Below, in pieces: positions 26,025 to 43,897 of a DNA stretch of 44,226 nucleotides. Under the pieces are notes generated by a model. That model was not told where the DNA came from. It worked only from the letters and a program-made list of their open reading frames with translations, and made no database searches. The position numbers and the translations under genes were made by a program. Origin of the DNA: an uncultured Acidobacteriia bacterium (GTDB taxonomy: Bacteria; Acidobacteriota; Terriglobia; Bryobacterales; Bryobacteraceae); assembly GCA_903828455.1 (NCBI GenBank), contig CAIKMJ010000018.1:1-44226 (forward strand). Direction: 5' to 3'. Within the stretch, counting starts at the first letter, position 1; every line of letters starts with the position of its first letter.

Positions 26025-27209
26025 ATGACGCGATCCCGGATCGTTGCCGGCGCAGTGGTTTTGAGCGGAGTGGTTTTGAGCGGAATTCTGCTCACCGCGC
26101 CGCTGCAGGCCCAGCAGCCCGCGCGCGAAAAGATCGATCTCTCGAAGCTCGGTCCGCAGGTCGGCCAGAAGGTGCCCGATTTCAGCCTTCGCGATCAGTT
26201 CGGCGTCACGCGCAATCTGAACTCCGTCATGGGCCCCAGTGGCGCCATGCTCGTCTTCATCCGCTCCGCCGACTGGTGACCGTACTGTAAAACGCAGCTG
26301 GTCGAGCTGCAGGGTCAACTTCGTGAAATTCAGTCTCGCGGGCTGGGCGTGGCTTCCATCAGCTACGATTCGCCGGAGATCGTCACCGCCTTCAGCAAGC
26401 AGCGCGGCATCGCATTCCCTATGCTTTCTGACGCGGGTTCGGCCACCATCAAACGTTACGGGCTCCTCAATACGCTCGTTGAGCAGGCGCTGGGGCCGAA
26501 CGCGAATGACCCGGAAATCAAGGCCGCCGCGGCGAAATACGTCTCGGCCGTCGGCGCGCGCGCCGACCAGAATGGCATGGCATTCCCCGGCACCCTGATT
26601 GTCGATCGCCAGGGCCGCGTCACCTCCCGTTTCTTTGAGGATTTCTACGTCGACCGCAACACCGTTTCCAGCATTCTCATCCGCCTCGGCGGCAAGTCGG
26701 ATTCCTCCGTCGCCGCCACCAAAGTTTCCACTCAACACATGGATGTAACGGCGTATGCGAGCGATGCCGCCGTGGCGCCCGGCAATCGCTTCTCGCTGGT
26801 CGTCGCCATGGCGCCCCACGCGGGCCTGCACGTTTACGCGCCCGGCGCGGAGAAATCCGGCTACCGTGTTGTCGCGCTCCGGCTCGATCCCCATCCGCAG
26901 ATCCGCGTTTTTGCGCCGCAGTTCCCCGCGTCGGAAATCTTCCATTTCAAGCCGCTCAACGAGCGCATCCCGGTTTATCAGAAGCCATTCCAGCTGGTGC
27001 AGGAACTGCTTCTCGATGGCACCGCCGCCAGCCAGGAGGCCTTGCGCGGCAAAGAAGAGCTGACGCTCACCGGAACCCTGCAGTATCAGGCCTGCGACGA
27101 AAAGCTCTGCTACAACCCGGTGTCGGTACCGCTCACCTGGAAACTCAGCCTGCGCTCCATTATTCGTGAACGCCCGGCCGTTGCGCCCGCGGCCGCCGCC
27201 GCCCGCTGA
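26025..27209 (+). CDS. Putative selenoprotein: exported redoxin with UxxC motif fused to a DsbD-alpha-like domain
   Basis: Read through one in-frame TGA (26277-26279) this is a 394-residue protein. Signal peptide (about 1-29, VVLSGVVLSGILLTAPLQAQ), then an AhpC/TSA-type redoxin domain (about 45-225): VGQKVPDFSLRDQFGVTRNL, AMLVFIRSADW-U-PYCKTQLVELQ, ISYDSPEIVTAFSKQRGIAFPMLSD, and a late GMAFPGTLIVDRQGRVTSRFF. The TGA is codon 85, exactly where the first Cys of CPYC is expected, so U85/C88 would be the active site. Residues 240-385 resemble the N-terminal domain of DsbD, with the pair C357/C362 in CDEKLC followed by YNP. There are no other cysteines. A perfect stem-loop follows the TGA. A stop mutation or sequencing error is possible, but the exact position and uninterrupted frame on both sides favour selenocysteine. 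Confidence 0.8.
26054..26083 (+). repeat. 15-bp tandem duplication in the signal peptide of the redoxin
   Basis: AGTGGTTTTGAGCGG at 26054-26068 and 26069-26083, identical and in frame. It doubles VVLSG in the hydrophobic core of the signal peptide. Confidence 0.85.
26294..26310 (+). promoter_or_regulatory. Candidate bacterial SECIS hairpin
   Basis: GCAGCT (26294-26299), loop GGTCG (26300-26304), AGCTGC (26305-26310): a perfect six-base stem, five-base loop beginning GGUC. Twenty bases separate the TGA from the loop's first G, close to the spacing in E. coli fdhF, whose SelB-binding loop is also GGUC-type. Caution: the same bases encode QLVELQ, so part of the pairing could be a chance of codon choice. 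Confidence 0.65.
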
Positions 27210-38308: not shown

Positions 38309-41300
38309 CTACTTCGGAGGCGGTGTGCCGGACCAAAAACTCCCCAGCCACTCGAAGCCGAGTTTCGCCGCCTTCCCGGCCTTGCCCGCCACCCCGGCCA
38401 ATGAGTTCTCAACGAAGACCGCCGAGGCCGTCAGTTCATCGATCACCATTCCCGATAACGCCCCGTCTTGTTGTGCCCCGGTGCCGGCCAGCAATTGGTT
38501 GACGAGTCGGTAGTATTCCTTTGGATTGTTGTCGAATTTTCCCTGAACCTTCAGCTTGTACAGAGCCTTCAGCGCTGCTGCCTCGCCAATATTCGTCGCA
38601 TTGCTGAGCGTGGCCTGCTCCTGTTCTGCCCCTTGGATCGCGGTGTATAGCTTGACCCCTTCCTTGGCGACATCCAGCAACTTACCAGCCCCGTCCAATA
38701 TCTGGCCGCCGGTCTTGAGCTTGCCGGCCAAATTGCTCGCTGCCTCCGATTTCTGGACCAGCTCGCCCACTCCTTCCGTTCCGTTGAGCGCCGTCGCCGT
38801 GTCGGGCACCAGCTTCGCAGCCTCTCCGAGTGAATCCTTGGCGGTCTCTTCGAGGCCCTTCGCGGCCGTATCCAGCACCTGTGCCGCACCGCTCGCATAT
38901 GTGCTTGGCGCCGTCAGGACATCCTCCGGAGCGAACCCCGTCCAGTCCCCTCTGTTCAGCGGATCGTTTTTGGCGTACTGATAGGGATTTGCCTCGAGCG
39001 GATTCGCGATTCTCACCGGATCAGGCGAAATAAACCGCGCCGTCGTGCTGTCGTAATAGCGTGCCCGAACGTAATAAAGACTTGTCGCTCCCTCCTGCAT
39101 CACGCCAAAAGCGCCCTTCCATACAAACGGATTGTCCGTCGTTCCCGTCCGGGTCGTCGTTTCTCCGTATGGCGTCACGCTGTAGCTGTCGGTCACGGCG
39201 CCGGAGTCGCCTGTAAGCAGCAGAGTCGACCCGCTCTCGTCGAAATGATAGAAGTGATGAGCGCCCGTGGCCGCATCGATTGCGAACAGCAGCGTCCCGT
39301 TCGGTGCATAAACGTAATAGGTCTGGTCCCCGGAAGCACCCTTCACCGTCGCCAGCGACGGCAGACTGGTTGCGTAATTCCAGACATAAGTGGATGTCAC
39401 TCCTTGTGATGTCCGCGACGTCCGCAACCCGAATCCGTCGTAGCCGAGCGTGGCTGAACCATCCGCGCCCGTGTACCCTGTCAGTCGGGCGGCCGCGTCC
39501 CACGCGTAGGTGCGCAGCGTGTCGGCGTTTACTTCGCCGTTCCCGTCGTAGGTGAACCCTGCCACCTGTTCGGCCGCGTCATAGGACAGCGGCAGCACTC
39601 CCGGAGCCAGACTCGCCGGCGGCGCCGGCGTTCGCGTTTCCGAAATAATCCGCCCTGCCGCATCGCGCTGCATCGCAATTGATGCGCCGGCATCATCCAC
39701 AACGGAAGACAAACGCCCGTCCGGATCATACGTGTACTGCGTCTTGTGTCCGTTCGAACGCGCGAGTGCCGTAAGCTGGTGAGCCACATCGTAAGCAAAA
39801 CTCACGGATGCTCCCGTCCAGTCCGTGACACTCGCCGGCAGTCCTGCCGCACTGTAACGATAAGTTACGGTCTTGTTCGGTGCGTAGGTGATGGAGGCGA
39901 TCCGCTCGTCCGCATCTCGCCCGATCGTCAACCCGTTCGAACCGGTCAGTGCGCCGTCCGCATCATAGGAGAGCACAATTCCCGGACCTGTCAGCAGTCG
40001 GTCGTCCGCGTCATAGGCGTAAGTCAGATTCGTCCCGTCCGAGTAAGCCCGGCTAACGATGTTCCCCGCCGGATCCAGCGTGAAATTTTGCGTTCCCAGC
40101 GGCGATTGCACCGCGCTGATTCTGCCGCGCGTGTCGTATGTGTAATTTATTGATCGCCCCAGTGGATCGGTACGTTGCGACAGCCGGCCTCCGCTGTCGT
40201 ATGAAAATCCCCACGTCGATCCGTTCGGGTCTGTGAGTCCTGTCGGGTATCCCGATGCATCCCTCGTCAGCGTCACGCCGATCGGTGTCTTCCCGCCCAC
40301 CGTGTAGCCCACTACCCGTCCCGCCGGATCATACTTTACCGCCGTCGTCACCCCGGTCGGATCGGCTGTCGAGACCGCTCGCCCCCGCTTATCGCGAACG
40401 ATTGTGTACCTTTCCCCCACCGGAGTCGTGATCGTGACCGGGTGTCCGTCCGCGTCCAGCGTGAACGTCGTCGTGCGCGAGAGCGCATCCGTTATCGACA
40501 CGGGCAGATCTTCATTGTTGTATTTGACCGTGGACCCGTTTCCGTTTGTATCCGCAATTTTCGTGAGTCGCCGGTTCGTGTCGAAAGTGTACGTCAGGGT
40601 CTCGCCTGCTGCCGCTACGGCAGTTTTCAGCAGTCCGGCTGCGTCGTACGTAAACGATGCGTTATGCCCGTTGGCATCCGTCGCCTTGGTAATTCGTTCG
40701 TTCGCGTCGTAGGTCTCGCCGGTTATTTTGCCGGTCGCGTCGGTGAGTGTTGCCACTTTGTTGTTGGCGTTAAAGCTCACCAGAGAATTGTTGCCGCGTT
40801 CATCGGTTCGCTTCAGAATGTTATCGCGATTGTCGTACGCATAGCTCCTCGTGTCGCCGTTGGCGAACTTGTTCTGCCGAATCCGTTTCTGTAAGTCATA
40901 GCTGTAGCTGGTCACGTTCCCGGCCGTATCCGTGACAGAAGCCAGCGTGGCGTCGGCGGCGTTGTACGCGTAGGTCGTCGTTCGCCCCAGCGGGTCCTGA
41001 CTCGTCAGAATTTGTCCGCGCGAATTATACGTGTAAGCCCATGCTTTCCCGTCTTCGTCGGTTACCGATAACAGATTGCCTGTTGCGTCGTACGTCATCG
41101 ACCAGGCGGCCCCGTCCGCAAACTGGATGCCGGTCAGGTTGTAAAACGTGAAAGGTGCGACTGTTTGCGCAGTCCACGTATAAGTTGTGGTGTTTCCCAG
41201 TGCGTCTGTCTCTGTTGCCAGATAGCCGGAGGAGCCCTGAAACGTCCGCGTCGTCTTGCCCCCCAGCCGGTCAGTCAGGCCGGTGATGTGCTGCTTCAAA

Positions 41301-42568
41301 TCGTAGGTTACAGAGAGCGCGTTCCCGTACGAATCTGCATGGCTCGTGAAATCCGACACAATGCGGCTTGTGTCGGTGGTCACAACGCCCAGTGGGTCTT
41401 TCACTGTTGTGGAACCATCCGTGTTGTAAGTGAACGTTGTCGTGCTGCCGACGCTGTCCGACTGCGTCACAACGCGCCCCGTCGTGTCCCACGTCTGGCT
41501 GAACGGCTTGTTTCCCAGTGGAAGCGCGTGGCTCAGCATCAGGCCGTTCATCGTACTTGTCGTTGTATAAGTAAAGGACTCCGTGTTTCCGTTTGCGTCC
41601 GTGACCGATGTCAGATCCGTCCCGGTATAGTTGAACGTAACCGACCGCCCCGTCTGATCCGCAACCTTCGTTAGTGTGTTGTTAGCACCATAGGTGAGGG
41701 TCAGCAGCCGTCCGAGTCCGTCGCTTACCTGCCCCGTCGTTGTCCCGGAAGTCACCGTCAGAGTGTTGCCGTGTCGGTCCTGAATTGACGAAACCCCGAT
41801 CGTCCCGCTCGTTCCCGAAAACGTGTAAATCAAATTCGTCCGGGAATCCAGAAACTGATAACTGTTGTTCGCTCCGCTTACCAGTTGGTAACTCACGGAT
41901 TCCTGAGTAAGCGGCTGCCACGAGGTTCCCGATTGCTGGAACAGCAGGGTCTTTGCCCCCGGCAGCACCACCTCCGCGAACGGCGGAGTCAGGACGAGAG
42001 TTATCTGGAAGTTATGCATCCAGTTGTTGCCAAGCGCGCCTGACGCCCCGTTCGCAGCCAGCAGCGACCCGTAATACCGGCGGAACTCCAGCGGCAGCGG
42101 CCCGCCCAGCCGCAAATCGGCTGGAATCCCCGGCTCATACAATTCGCCTGTTGCGGTAGAGACCGGTTCTCCTGCCGCCTGGGCATTCGTGGCGACATAT
42201 GTTCCTGGTCCCGCCACTGAGATCTGTTGCAGGAATGACTTCCGGATATCGTTGTCCAGCGCCGACAGCGTGCCCGTCCACCCGCCGCTTCCCACGTTCA
42301 GCTGGACCGTACCGGCAATCGTAGCTCCGGCAGGATTAACAGCCGACGGCGAAATCTGAAAATTGCTCGAGCCGATCAGCGAAAATGTAAAGTAGTTGCC
42401 CTGCGAAGAGGGCCCCACATTCAGGATGAAGGGCTGAATATAGTTATACGACCCGTTAACTGAGTCCCAAACGCCCGGGGGCAGCGTGAACGTAGTCGGT
42501 GCCTGAGCAACCAGACTGACTGCTCCAATCAACATCCCCAATATAAAAGTGATCTTCCGATTCGTCAT
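38309..42568 (-). CDS. RHS/YD-repeat exported protein with novel C-terminal domain
   Basis: 1419 residues. A signal peptide (ITFILGMLIGAVSLVAQ) is followed by a beta-rich domain (about 22-120) and a DUF6531-like RHS entry segment (PVSTATGELYEPGIPADLRLGGPLPLEFRRYYGSL, about 135-170). Many YD repeats follow (e.g. YDATGNLLSVTDEDGKAWAY, YDKRG-like units to about 1130), and then the core-end motif LYYVRARYYDSTTARFISPDP. The usual DPxG self-cleavage site after the core is DWTG here. The C-terminal roughly 208 residues are helix-rich and Ala/Lys/Leu-rich (LDTAAKGLEETAKDSLGEAA, KLYTAIQGAEQEQATL) and match nothing I know; it may be an effector or an adhesion tail. It is overlapped at the start by the partner gene (ATGA). 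Confidence 0.9.
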   Translation of the reverse strand: MTNRKITFILGMLIGAVSLVAQAPTTFTLPPGVWDSVNGSYNYIQPFILNVGPSSQGNYFTFSLIGSSNFQISPSAVNPAGATIAGTVQLNVGSGGWTGTLSALDNDIRKSFLQQISVAGPGTYVATNAQAAGEPVSTATGELYEPGIPADLRLGGPLPLEFRRYYGSLLAANGASGALGNNWMHNFQITLVLTPPFAEVVLPGAKTLLFQQSGTSWQPLTQESVSYQLVSGANNSYQFLDSRTNLIYTFSGTSGTIGVSSIQDRHGNTLTVTSGTTTGQVSDGLGRLLTLTYGANNTLTKVADQTGRSVTFNYTGTDLTSVTDANGNTESFTYTTTSTMNGLMLSHALPLGNKPFSQTWDTTGRVVTQSDSVGSTTTFTYNTDGSTTVKDPLGVVTTDTSRIVSDFTSHADSYGNALSVTYDLKQHITGLTDRLGGKTTRTFQGSSGYLATETDALGNTTTYTWTAQTVAPFTFYNLTGIQFADGAAWSMTYDATGNLLSVTDEDGKAWAYTYNSRGQILTSQDPLGRTTTYAYNAADATLASVTDTAGNVTSYSYDLQKRIRQNKFANGDTRSYAYDNRDNILKRTDERGNNSLVSFNANNKVATLTDATGKITGETYDANERITKATDANGHNASFTYDAAGLLKTAVAAAGETLTYTFDTNRRLTKIADTNGNGSTVKYNNEDLPVSITDALSRTTTFTLDADGHPVTITTPVGERYTIVRDKRGRAVSTADPTGVTTAVKYDPAGRVVGYTVGGKTPIGVTLTRDASGYPTGLTDPNGSTWGFSYDSGGRLSQRTDPLGRSINYTYDTRGRISAVQSPLGTQNFTLDPAGNIVSRAYSDGTNLTYAYDADDRLLTGPGIVLSYDADGALTGSNGLTIGRDADERIASITYAPNKTVTYRYSAAGLPASVTDWTGASVSFAYDVAHQLTALARSNGHKTQYTYDPDGRLSSVVDDAGASIAMQRDAAGRIISETRTPAPPASLAPGVLPLSYDAAEQVAGFTYDGNGEVNADTLRTYAWDAAARLTGYTGADGSATLGYDGFGLRTSRTSQGVTSTYVWNYATSLPSLATVKGASGDQTYYVYAPNGTLLFAIDAATGAHHFYHFDESGSTLLLTGDSGAVTDSYSVTPYGETTTRTGTTDNPFVWKGAFGVMQEGATSLYYVRARYYDSTTARFISPDPVRIANPLEANPYQYAKNDPLNRGDWTGFAPEDVLTAPSTYASGAAQVLDTAAKGLEETAKDSLGEAAKLVPDTATALNGTEGVGELVQKSEAASNLAGKLKTGGQILDGAGKLLDVAKEGVKLYTAIQGAEQEQATLSNATNIGEAAALKALYKLKVQGKFDNNPKEYYRLVNQLLAGTGAQQDGALSGMVIDELTASAVFVENSLAGVAGKAGKAAKLGFEWLGSFWSGTPPPK

Positions 42569-43500
42569 GGTTGCACCGTAATCAAAGCGCCTGTGGTCGT
42601 TGAAATGCCGTTATAAATGCAGCCAACAGGATTATCTCCGCTGCTGGCCGCGGCCGGAACCGCGATATTGAGCTGATAGAGCCCTGGGCTGATCAAGCCT
42701 GCAAAGCTGACTGTTGCTGTGTTCGCCCCGATCCTACAAACCGGCAAACTCGGCAGGGAGCCGGATTGGCTCGACGAACCGTTTGTCAGCGTCCCGCTCG
42801 GCAGTCCGAATCCCACTGCGTAGGTAATAATCGTTTCGCCCGGTTTCGCCGGAGTCGATAAGCCCGGGTAGAGTGTGGACGGTCCAATCAGCGTGAAATC
42901 AGCGTGGGTCGCGGCCGTGTAGCCCTTTGCATTGAAGGTCAGGAAAGCAGGGGACGTGGCTCCCAGTGTCGCCGTAAACGCCGGACTTGCCGTGCTTCCG
43001 CTCGTCACCACGATCGCCACGGGCCCGGTCATATTGTCGAGCGGCGTCAGCACATTGATCTGATCGCTGGCACAAATCGTGCTCGTTGCCGCGCTGCAGA
43101 AAAAATAGACAAAAGCAGGCTTGCCGTTCACCGTTACACTGACGCCGTTCAACTGTGTCGGCAGTTGGCCGTTGGCGAAGGAAGGTGCTGTACTCCAGAT
43201 CACGCCGCTCGCTGGTGTGGACGACGGTACCAGCCCCGCTCCCTTGATCACGATCCAGTCGTTCTGGGAAATGATCGGCCCGCCCGATGCGGTTGTCACG
43301 GAAGTGATGAGCGGCCCTGCAGCCGAACTCTTCACGGACCGGGAAGTCAGGTTCCCCGCATTGTCATAAACATAAGTGATGACAGAGCCGTTACCGTAAT
43401 CGGCGCTGACCAGTCGCCCGGCGGAGTCGTAGGAGAAGTTGATGCTTGCGGCGGAACACAAGCACGAAAATGCGACGAGCTTGAAGAATCCCTTCATCAT
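42565..43500 (-). CDS. Exported protein with YD repeat and Solibacter-type C-terminal domain
   Basis: About 311 residues. A signal peptide (KLVAFSCLCSAASI) is followed by two YD units (NFSYDSAGRLVSADYGNGSV, YVYDNAGNLTSR). The rest (about 55-311) resembles the TIGR03437 domain typical of Solibacter-type proteins: IISQNDWIVIKGAGL, LPTQLNGVSVTVNGKPAFVYF, SPAFLTFNAKGYTAATHADFT, AKPGETIITYAVGFG and LYQLNIAVPAAASSGDNPVGC. Its TGA overlaps the ATG of the RHS gene, so the two are made together. It may be a surface or secretion partner of the RHS protein (inference). I chose ATG 43500. Confidence 0.8.
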   Translation of the reverse strand: MMKGFFKLVAFSCLCSAASINFSYDSAGRLVSADYGNGSVITYVYDNAGNLTSRSVKSSAAGPLITSVTTASGGPIISQNDWIVIKGAGLVPSSTPASGVIWSTAPSFANGQLPTQLNGVSVTVNGKPAFVYFFCSAATSTICASDQINVLTPLDNMTGPVAIVVTSGSTASPAFTATLGATSPAFLTFNAKGYTAATHADFTLIGPSTLYPGLSTPAKPGETIITYAVGFGLPSGTLTNGSSSQSGSLPSLPVCRIGANTATVSFAGLISPGLYQLNIAVPAAASSGDNPVGCIYNGISTTTGALITVQP

Positions 43501-43897
43501 GGGACCTGAGCATAGCACGATTAAATGACGAGGCGAAACGCCAGGACTGCGGAGACGTTCGAATCTTTACAGGAATTTCGCGGGAGTCAGAATCGCACCG
43601 GCGTCGCCTGGATATAAGCTTTGACCATTGAATGATTCGCGGTGCCATGTCTGTCTGCATGTCAGGAACAGGCCGCCGGCGATGACGGAGTTCCGCCGAC
43701 TCCGGGGCGAAGGGTTGCGAAGAGTTTCTTTACGCGAGAAAAATTGCCCGCTTTCGATTGCGGAACGCCCCTGCACAGAAACCATTCGCAGTGGTCCCGC
43801 AGCGCCGGGGAATGTAAAGTATTCTGCTCGGACTTTGTTACAGTTTCGACCGCTTCCGTTCGCTTCCCGATGAAACGACCCCGGCGGCAGCCCATTC
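43501..43897. other. Intergenic region upstream of the RHS operon
   Basis: No gene recognised in these roughly 400 bases. It should hold the promoter of the RHS operon (minus strand), but no convincing -35/-10 pair was found. Several short open frames are without family signatures. Confidence 0.4.

Follow-up and report, generated by a model that had tools for sequence, protein, structure and literature searches.

A predicted selenocysteine-containing redoxin fused to a DsbD N-terminal-like domain in an uncultured Acidobacteriia bacterium

Does the TGA that interrupts a redoxin gene of an uncultured Acidobacteriia bacterium end the protein, or is it translated as selenocysteine (Sec)? The gene lies in the window, by which we mean the whole stretch of DNA analyzed (44,226 nucleotides of contig CAIKMJ010000018.1), and a plain listing of open reading frames (ORFs) ends it at this UGA. 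An earlier reading of the letters alone (the sequence-only reading) proposed that one TGA divides a single continuous frame and stands at the first Cys position of a redoxin CxxC motif. Both observations were borne out. TGA 26277-26279 was the sole internal stop in the frame 26025-27206, which closes at TGA 27207-27209, and the surrounding residues were as claimed (SADW-TGA-PYCKTQL), giving the motif W-U-P-Y-C. From the comparisons described here, we predict that TGA 26277 is very probably translated as Sec. Elsewhere in the window, positions 38309-43518 of the minus strand hold an RHS-type locus of two adjoining RHS-repeat ORFs, one of 1419 aa that also has DUF6531 and one of 317 aa. The features of the frame are as follows.

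26025-27209, plus strand: whole gene, 394 codons plus stop, with TGA 26277 read as Sec (full-length TGA relatives in other genomes)
26277-26279, plus strand: predicted Sec codon UGA, residue 85, first position of UxxC (sequence and relatives)
26286-26288, plus strand: Cys88, second UxxC position, presumed resolving Cys (invariant in a 26-row alignment; role assigned by inference)

A contig scan for relatives gave 53 loci. When 257 genomes of the same order were searched, 255 had a match; this figure is not a prevalence, as many of the matches were weak and could come from ordinary redoxins. From the best matches listed, we took 30 loci and a further 73 regions by score. At the aligned codon, the 156 loci had TGA (99), TGC (42), TGT (13), or ACC (one, L075), and the codon was missing in one (L093). 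Removal of seven duplicates, of L075 (judged misaligned), and of L093 (no aligned codon) left 147 distinct loci, with TGA in 98, TGC in 36, and TGT in 13 (49 Cys forms in all); many of the 73 regions had already been marked as having one TGA, hence 98 of 147 is not a prevalence. The sequence-only reading had named Cys or Sec at this codon in homologues as the supporting result, and clearly aligned relatives did carry Cys or TGA alone. The 98 TGA loci include two, L070:3193 and L071:3202, from a different peroxiredoxin-like family with the motif YRGYW-TGA-P-[FY]-C, in records titled Terriglobia and Acidobacteria. By its sequence, that family is likely another Sec redoxin.

Downstream of the TGA, comparison with 10 relatives gave dN values of 0.20-0.37, with dS at least 1.09 or saturated. 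These values indicate that the part 3' of the TGA is under purifying selection and is a working protein rather than debris. A TGA could also stand here if an ordinary Cys redoxin gene had recently acquired a nonsense mutation or had been misread in sequencing or assembly; the assembly is a draft of 80 contigs, and Cys codons are one base away from TGA. However, TGA occurs at exactly the same codon in 97 other distinct loci (L070 and L071 included), purifying selection acts on the downstream frame, and the genome has Sec pathway genes. We regard error or mutation as very improbable.

In the Sec pathway, SelA charges tRNA-Sec with selenophosphate made by SelD, and SelB delivers the charged tRNA while binding the hairpin that follows the UGA. 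The sequence-only reading named selA, selB, selC (tRNA-Sec), and selD as the genes to look for, and all four were present in the bacterium's own genome (G000; draft, 80 contigs, 98.6% complete). The protein-coding genes scored above curated cut-offs (selA on C49, 478 bits; selB on C25, 347 bits; selD on C24, 368 bits), and a tRNA-Sec with anticodon TCA was found on C8 at 74.3 bits. A second match above the tRNA-Sec cut-off of 47, at 49.7 bits, was a tRNA-Ser; therefore, scores near 47-50 bits were not counted as tRNA-Sec. Eight further redoxin matches were listed in G000 up to E 1; one has a TAA, and none is interrupted by TGA. Likewise, a search of G000 for a Sec formate dehydrogenase gave ten matches, none above cut-off and none with an internal stop. 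This genome therefore seems to lack formate dehydrogenase alpha, an enzyme that often uses the Sec pathway.

The UGA might instead be read as another residue without selenium, for example as Cys by an unusual tRNA with a UCA anticodon. Such tRNAs have been reported in bacteria, and all clearly aligned non-TGA relatives have Cys here, so Cys would work at this position. However, when the six best matches to the tRNA-Sec model were put through ARAGORN, the one TCA anticodon belonged to the tRNA-Sec of 74.3 bits; in addition, selA, selB, and selD are present, and the stem after the UGA is kept by synonymous covariation, as shown below. A reading without selenium therefore seems scarcely credible, and we return to Sec as the predicted residue.

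In the predicted protein, a peroxiredoxin-like redoxin with a UxxC motif is fused to a DsbD N-terminal-like domain, in which a pair of Cys is conserved. The sequence-only reading did not describe this second half.

26025-26117, plus strand: probable export signal, residues 1-31, basic then hydrophobic (by eye; a low-confidence tail in the model)
26160-26624, plus strand: AhpC-TSA/redoxin domain, residues 46-200 (Pfam PF00578, E 7e-26; PF08534, E 5e-15; peroxiredoxin fold matches)
26772-27119, plus strand: DsbD N-terminal-like (DsbD-alpha) domain, residues 250-365 (Pfam PF11412, 29.1 bits against a cut-off of 25)
27093-27110, plus strand: Cys357 and Cys362 (ACDEKLC), conserved pair of the DsbD-like domain (two alignments)

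Of the 26 proteins aligned, every one had redoxin domains by Pfam at E 0.001, and 23 had DsbD_N. W84, residue 85 (Sec shown as Cys), P86, Y87, and C88 were kept in all 26 rows; C357 and C362 were kept in at least 90% of these rows and were invariant in an 18-row alignment of the domain. A simple pattern detected the C-terminal Cys pair in 92 of 96 Sec rows. The four rows that lacked the pattern were L088 and L175, which do show both Cys, L107, which a contig end truncates, and L102. A third rival holds that the TGA is a real stop and that a separate gene of 286 codons begins at GTG 26349, where such an ORF does start; however, this codon falls inside the redoxin domain both in the window and in each of the 26 alignment members, most of which are Cys forms that read straight through, which makes this explanation practically negligible.

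The structure model of the protein had a mean pLDDT of 88.8, with a helix that begins at residue 86, right after the Sec position, and the best PDB matches of the full model were peroxiredoxins (e.g., BcpB and AhpE). The second domain, modelled alone, had a pLDDT of 89.8, and its eight best PDB matches were DsbD N-terminal domain entries, at modest scores (TMt 0.60-0.67, 12-19% identity). Compared by sequence with solved structures, the DsbD-like half gave only three weak, unrelated matches, and the fold search succeeded. The protein is not a complete DsbD, as Pfam found AhpC-TSA, Redoxin, and DsbD_N only, and no transmembrane or gamma domain. Other family assignments were also tried. Residue 82 is Ala (A-D-W-U), where a TxxU peroxiredoxin selenoprotein has T or S three residues before Sec. 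The SelL-related family (NCBIfam SelL_rel_redox, NF040769) was rejected, as its score of 59.6 bits fell below the curated cut-off of 120. Six NCBIfam models (June 2026 release) matched the window protein at E 0.001, none of them above its own cut-off.

A hairpin of the kind bound by SelB, a Sec insertion sequence (SECIS), follows the TGA.

26294-26310, plus strand: SECIS hairpin, six pairs, loop GGUCG (sequence, family comparison, and synonymous-coding test)
26300-26303, plus strand: GGUC apical tetraloop (outer bases covary as C-G or G-C around GU)
26277-26317, plus strand: possible lower helix, UGACC 26277-26281 with GGUCA 26313-26317 (fold prediction)

The perfect six-base stem and GGTCG loop that had been placed 15 bases past the TGA were found at 26294-26310; the stem (GCAGCT/AGCTGC) starts at the 15th base past the TGA, and the spacing from TGA to loop is 20 nt. 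A published model of the bacterial SECIS gives a stem of 4-16 pairs, a loop of 3-9 nt with G in one of the first two places, loop-flanking bases that mostly pair, a spacing of 16-37 nt, and a minimum free energy of -7.5 kcal/mol or lower (PMC13188914, in the part consulted). The window hairpin lies within these limits, with six pairs, a 5-nt loop (GGUCG), 20 nt, and -8.9 kcal/mol. Its local fold was not unusual in a shuffling test of three stretches (z -1.41, -0.88, and -0.85), and 22 of 200 shuffles of the first stretch were at least as stable. We also recoded the same peptide at random with synonymous codons, following the codon usage of ten ORFs of the window; six pairs arose in 2804 of 20000 draws (approximately 14%), and the closing pair of the tetraloop was also formed in 903 of those 2804. 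These values rule out the hairpin as proof by itself. The sequence-only reading had considered the arrangement unlikely by chance; the conclusion stands through the comparative evidence across relatives, from which the significance of the hairpin derives, but the reason given does not, since the hairpin alone is weak. The lower helix that pairs the UGA was complete in just 3 of 96 Sec rows and is therefore probably not a shared part. An Rfam scan of the window gave no match above the gathering score, and a promoter and terminator scan around the gene found none.

In the Sec loci, 2628 column pairs were ranked by mutual information, with offsets counted from the TGA. Pair 17-27 ranked first (GC 51, AT 38, GT 2, AC 1); it joins the third base of a Gln codon and the first base of the second Leu codon. 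Second was pair 20-23 (CG 44, GC 38), which closes the G-U loop and joins the third bases of Leu and Val codons. The sites of both pairs are synonymous in nearly all loci. The third-ranked pair, 38-51, falls outside the hairpin, and pair 14-30 ranked fourth. Covariation was then counted on a quick tree of 121 rows as independent pairs on well-supported branches. For pair 17-27, 6.9 of 8 changed in the same way and 0 in the other way (median p 0.016); for pair 20-23, the counts were 9.8 and 0 of 12 (median p 0.002). Pair 14-30 was not significant on the tree. Four control column pairs had median p values of 0.5, 0.125 (17-20), 0.0625 (20-27), and 1, two of them near significance. These sequence comparisons indicate that the hairpin stem is maintained by synonymous covariation across Sec forms.

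Ten loci (six TGA and four Cys) lack the SADW letters and were left out of the hairpin count, so that 92 Sec and 45 Cys loci remain. All six pairs were formed in 80 of the 92 Sec loci, with at least one pair missing in the other 12, compared to 2 of 25 Cys loci at an alignment score of at least 480 and none of 20 remoter Cys loci. In the loops of L088 and L090, GG replaces GU. The sequence-only reading had expected a hairpin kept only in Sec forms; it was indeed far commoner in them, but two Cys relatives retain six pairs, L053 and L024, the latter with identical hairpin letters. Taken together, the Sec genes of the genome, the Cys or TGA codon in relatives, and a hairpin that tracks Sec forms support the proposal of a probable selenoprotein.

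At least one locus was read in 89 of the 257 genomes, and the comparison of Sec and Cys forms with the Sec machinery rests on those loci. Across the genomes searched, selA was above cut-off in 206 and had no match in 28. A Sec form was present in 82 genomes, of which 74 had selA above cut-off; the other 8 had selB above cut-off, a tRNA-Sec scoring no less than 63 bits, or both. Thus, at least one Sec-machinery gene was found in 82 of 82. In six genomes, every locus read was a Cys form; four of these had no selA match and two (G132 and G173) had selA; G229 is in neither group, and G242 has selA and both Sec and Cys forms. The association of Sec form with selA had a Fisher p of 0.0027 on 88 genomes, a value that ignores kinship among genomes that are related and not independent. 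The Cys-form genomes without selA (G182, G189, G190, and G192) had no selB above cut-off either, and their best tRNA-Sec matches scored 42.7-49.6 bits, with two above 47, at the level of the own-genome tRNA-Ser.

The best tree had nine Sec/Cys changes, seven of which are forced by well-supported branches. Proteins from two records titled Bifidobacterium breve (L033) and Acidimicrobiia (L027) group among the acidobacterial rows of the tree, and these titles are probably wrong bin names. The window grouped with L024 (support 91, not starred), and both then grouped with L078 (support 98, starred). L024 is a Cys form, 65% identical to the window and identical to a locus of G190, one of the genomes lacking the machinery. 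Judged from the sequences, the simplest reading of L024 would be a recent exchange of Sec for Cys that left a relict SECIS; that its hairpin letters are due to chance is unlikely, though by no means negligible.

Selenoproteins of the UxxC redoxin type are already catalogued. The parts consulted of a 2026 review list, among predicted selenoproteins, Prx-like thiol:disulfide oxidoreductases (PF00578, UxxC or UxxU) and the Redoxin family (PF08534, UxxC) (PMC13188914, Table 1), the latter also appearing in PMC9312934; a 2006 survey counted four selenoproteins of three families in Acidobacteria (PMC1794560, in the part consulted). The window protein falls in this Prx-like/redoxin UxxC class, with PF00578/PF08534 and U85-P-Y-C88. 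It shares PF00578 and a UxxC with Sec first with the Prx-like oxidoreductases, whose table entry names no DsbD-type domain, and the accessible text of that review does not mention Acidobacteria (PMC13188914). With the Redoxin family selenoprotein it shares the redoxin domain and UxxC, as compared by description. An ocean survey, in the part consulted, describes a fusion of Prx-like 3 with an unknown Cys-bearing domain; compared by description only, it likewise joins a UxxC redoxin to a second domain with conserved Cys, but three Cys including a CxxC are described there, whereas the pair in the window is C-x4-C in a DsbD-alpha-like domain. The TsoB rhodanese/DsbD-like entry (PMC13188914, Table 1) is also a selenoprotein with a DsbD-like part, but has UxxxxU in a rhodanese context, in contrast to the redoxin with UxxC in the window. 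The N-terminal domain of DsbD itself (DsbD-alpha) shares with the window protein PF11412 above cut-off, the eight best fold matches, and the Cys pair; in the window protein, however, this domain is fused behind a redoxin and lacks the transmembrane part. No selenoprotein with a redoxin-DsbD fusion was found in the literature searched (including the consulted parts of PMC13188914, PMC9312934, PMC2398784, and PMC12013277), which spans few subscription papers and no preprints. Measured against that literature, what would be new is the fusion to a DsbD-type domain.

These features suggest a mechanism. SelB would bind hairpin 26294-26310 and bring tRNA-Sec to UGA 26277, and the product would be an exported redox protein with two domains. 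Located where a helix of the peroxiredoxin-like fold starts, Sec85 would be the attacking residue and Cys88 its resolving partner, as in the redoxin family, from which we infer both roles. A membrane DsbD would reduce Cys357/Cys362 of the DsbD-alpha-like domain, which would in turn pass electrons to the Sec85-Cys88 bond. A relay through this domain is proposed because the domain is fused to the redoxin and its Cys pair is conserved. No structure joins Sec85 to Cys357/362, and we consider the relay, as judged from sequence, a possibility just short of evenly balanced. The substrate could equally be peroxide or a protein disulfide. G000 also encodes an 828-residue DsbD-like protein (L190; C78, 415-2901, minus strand) with DsbD_N, DsbD_TM, thioredoxin/redoxin, and AhpC-TSA domains; by its domains, this protein could be a candidate electron donor to the window protein.

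Our overall proposal, tentative and held with rather more doubt than confidence, is that of an exported selenoenzyme with an in-chain relay, in which the DsbD-alpha-like domain would recycle the Sec-Cys bond and be fed by membrane DsbD. The family would be widely Sec-containing in Bryobacterales-type Acidobacteriota and would have switched several times between Sec and Cys, with some lines losing the machinery and at least one switch leaving SECIS letters behind (L024). Through comparison of relatives, the synonymous covariation around the GU loop defines a bacterial SECIS unusually cleanly. Similar genes of soil Acidobacteriota may be overlooked or misread because ORF listings are cut at UGA. 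With many natural Sec/Cys pairs, of which the window and L024 are very close, the family offers a direct test of what selenium brings to the enzyme.
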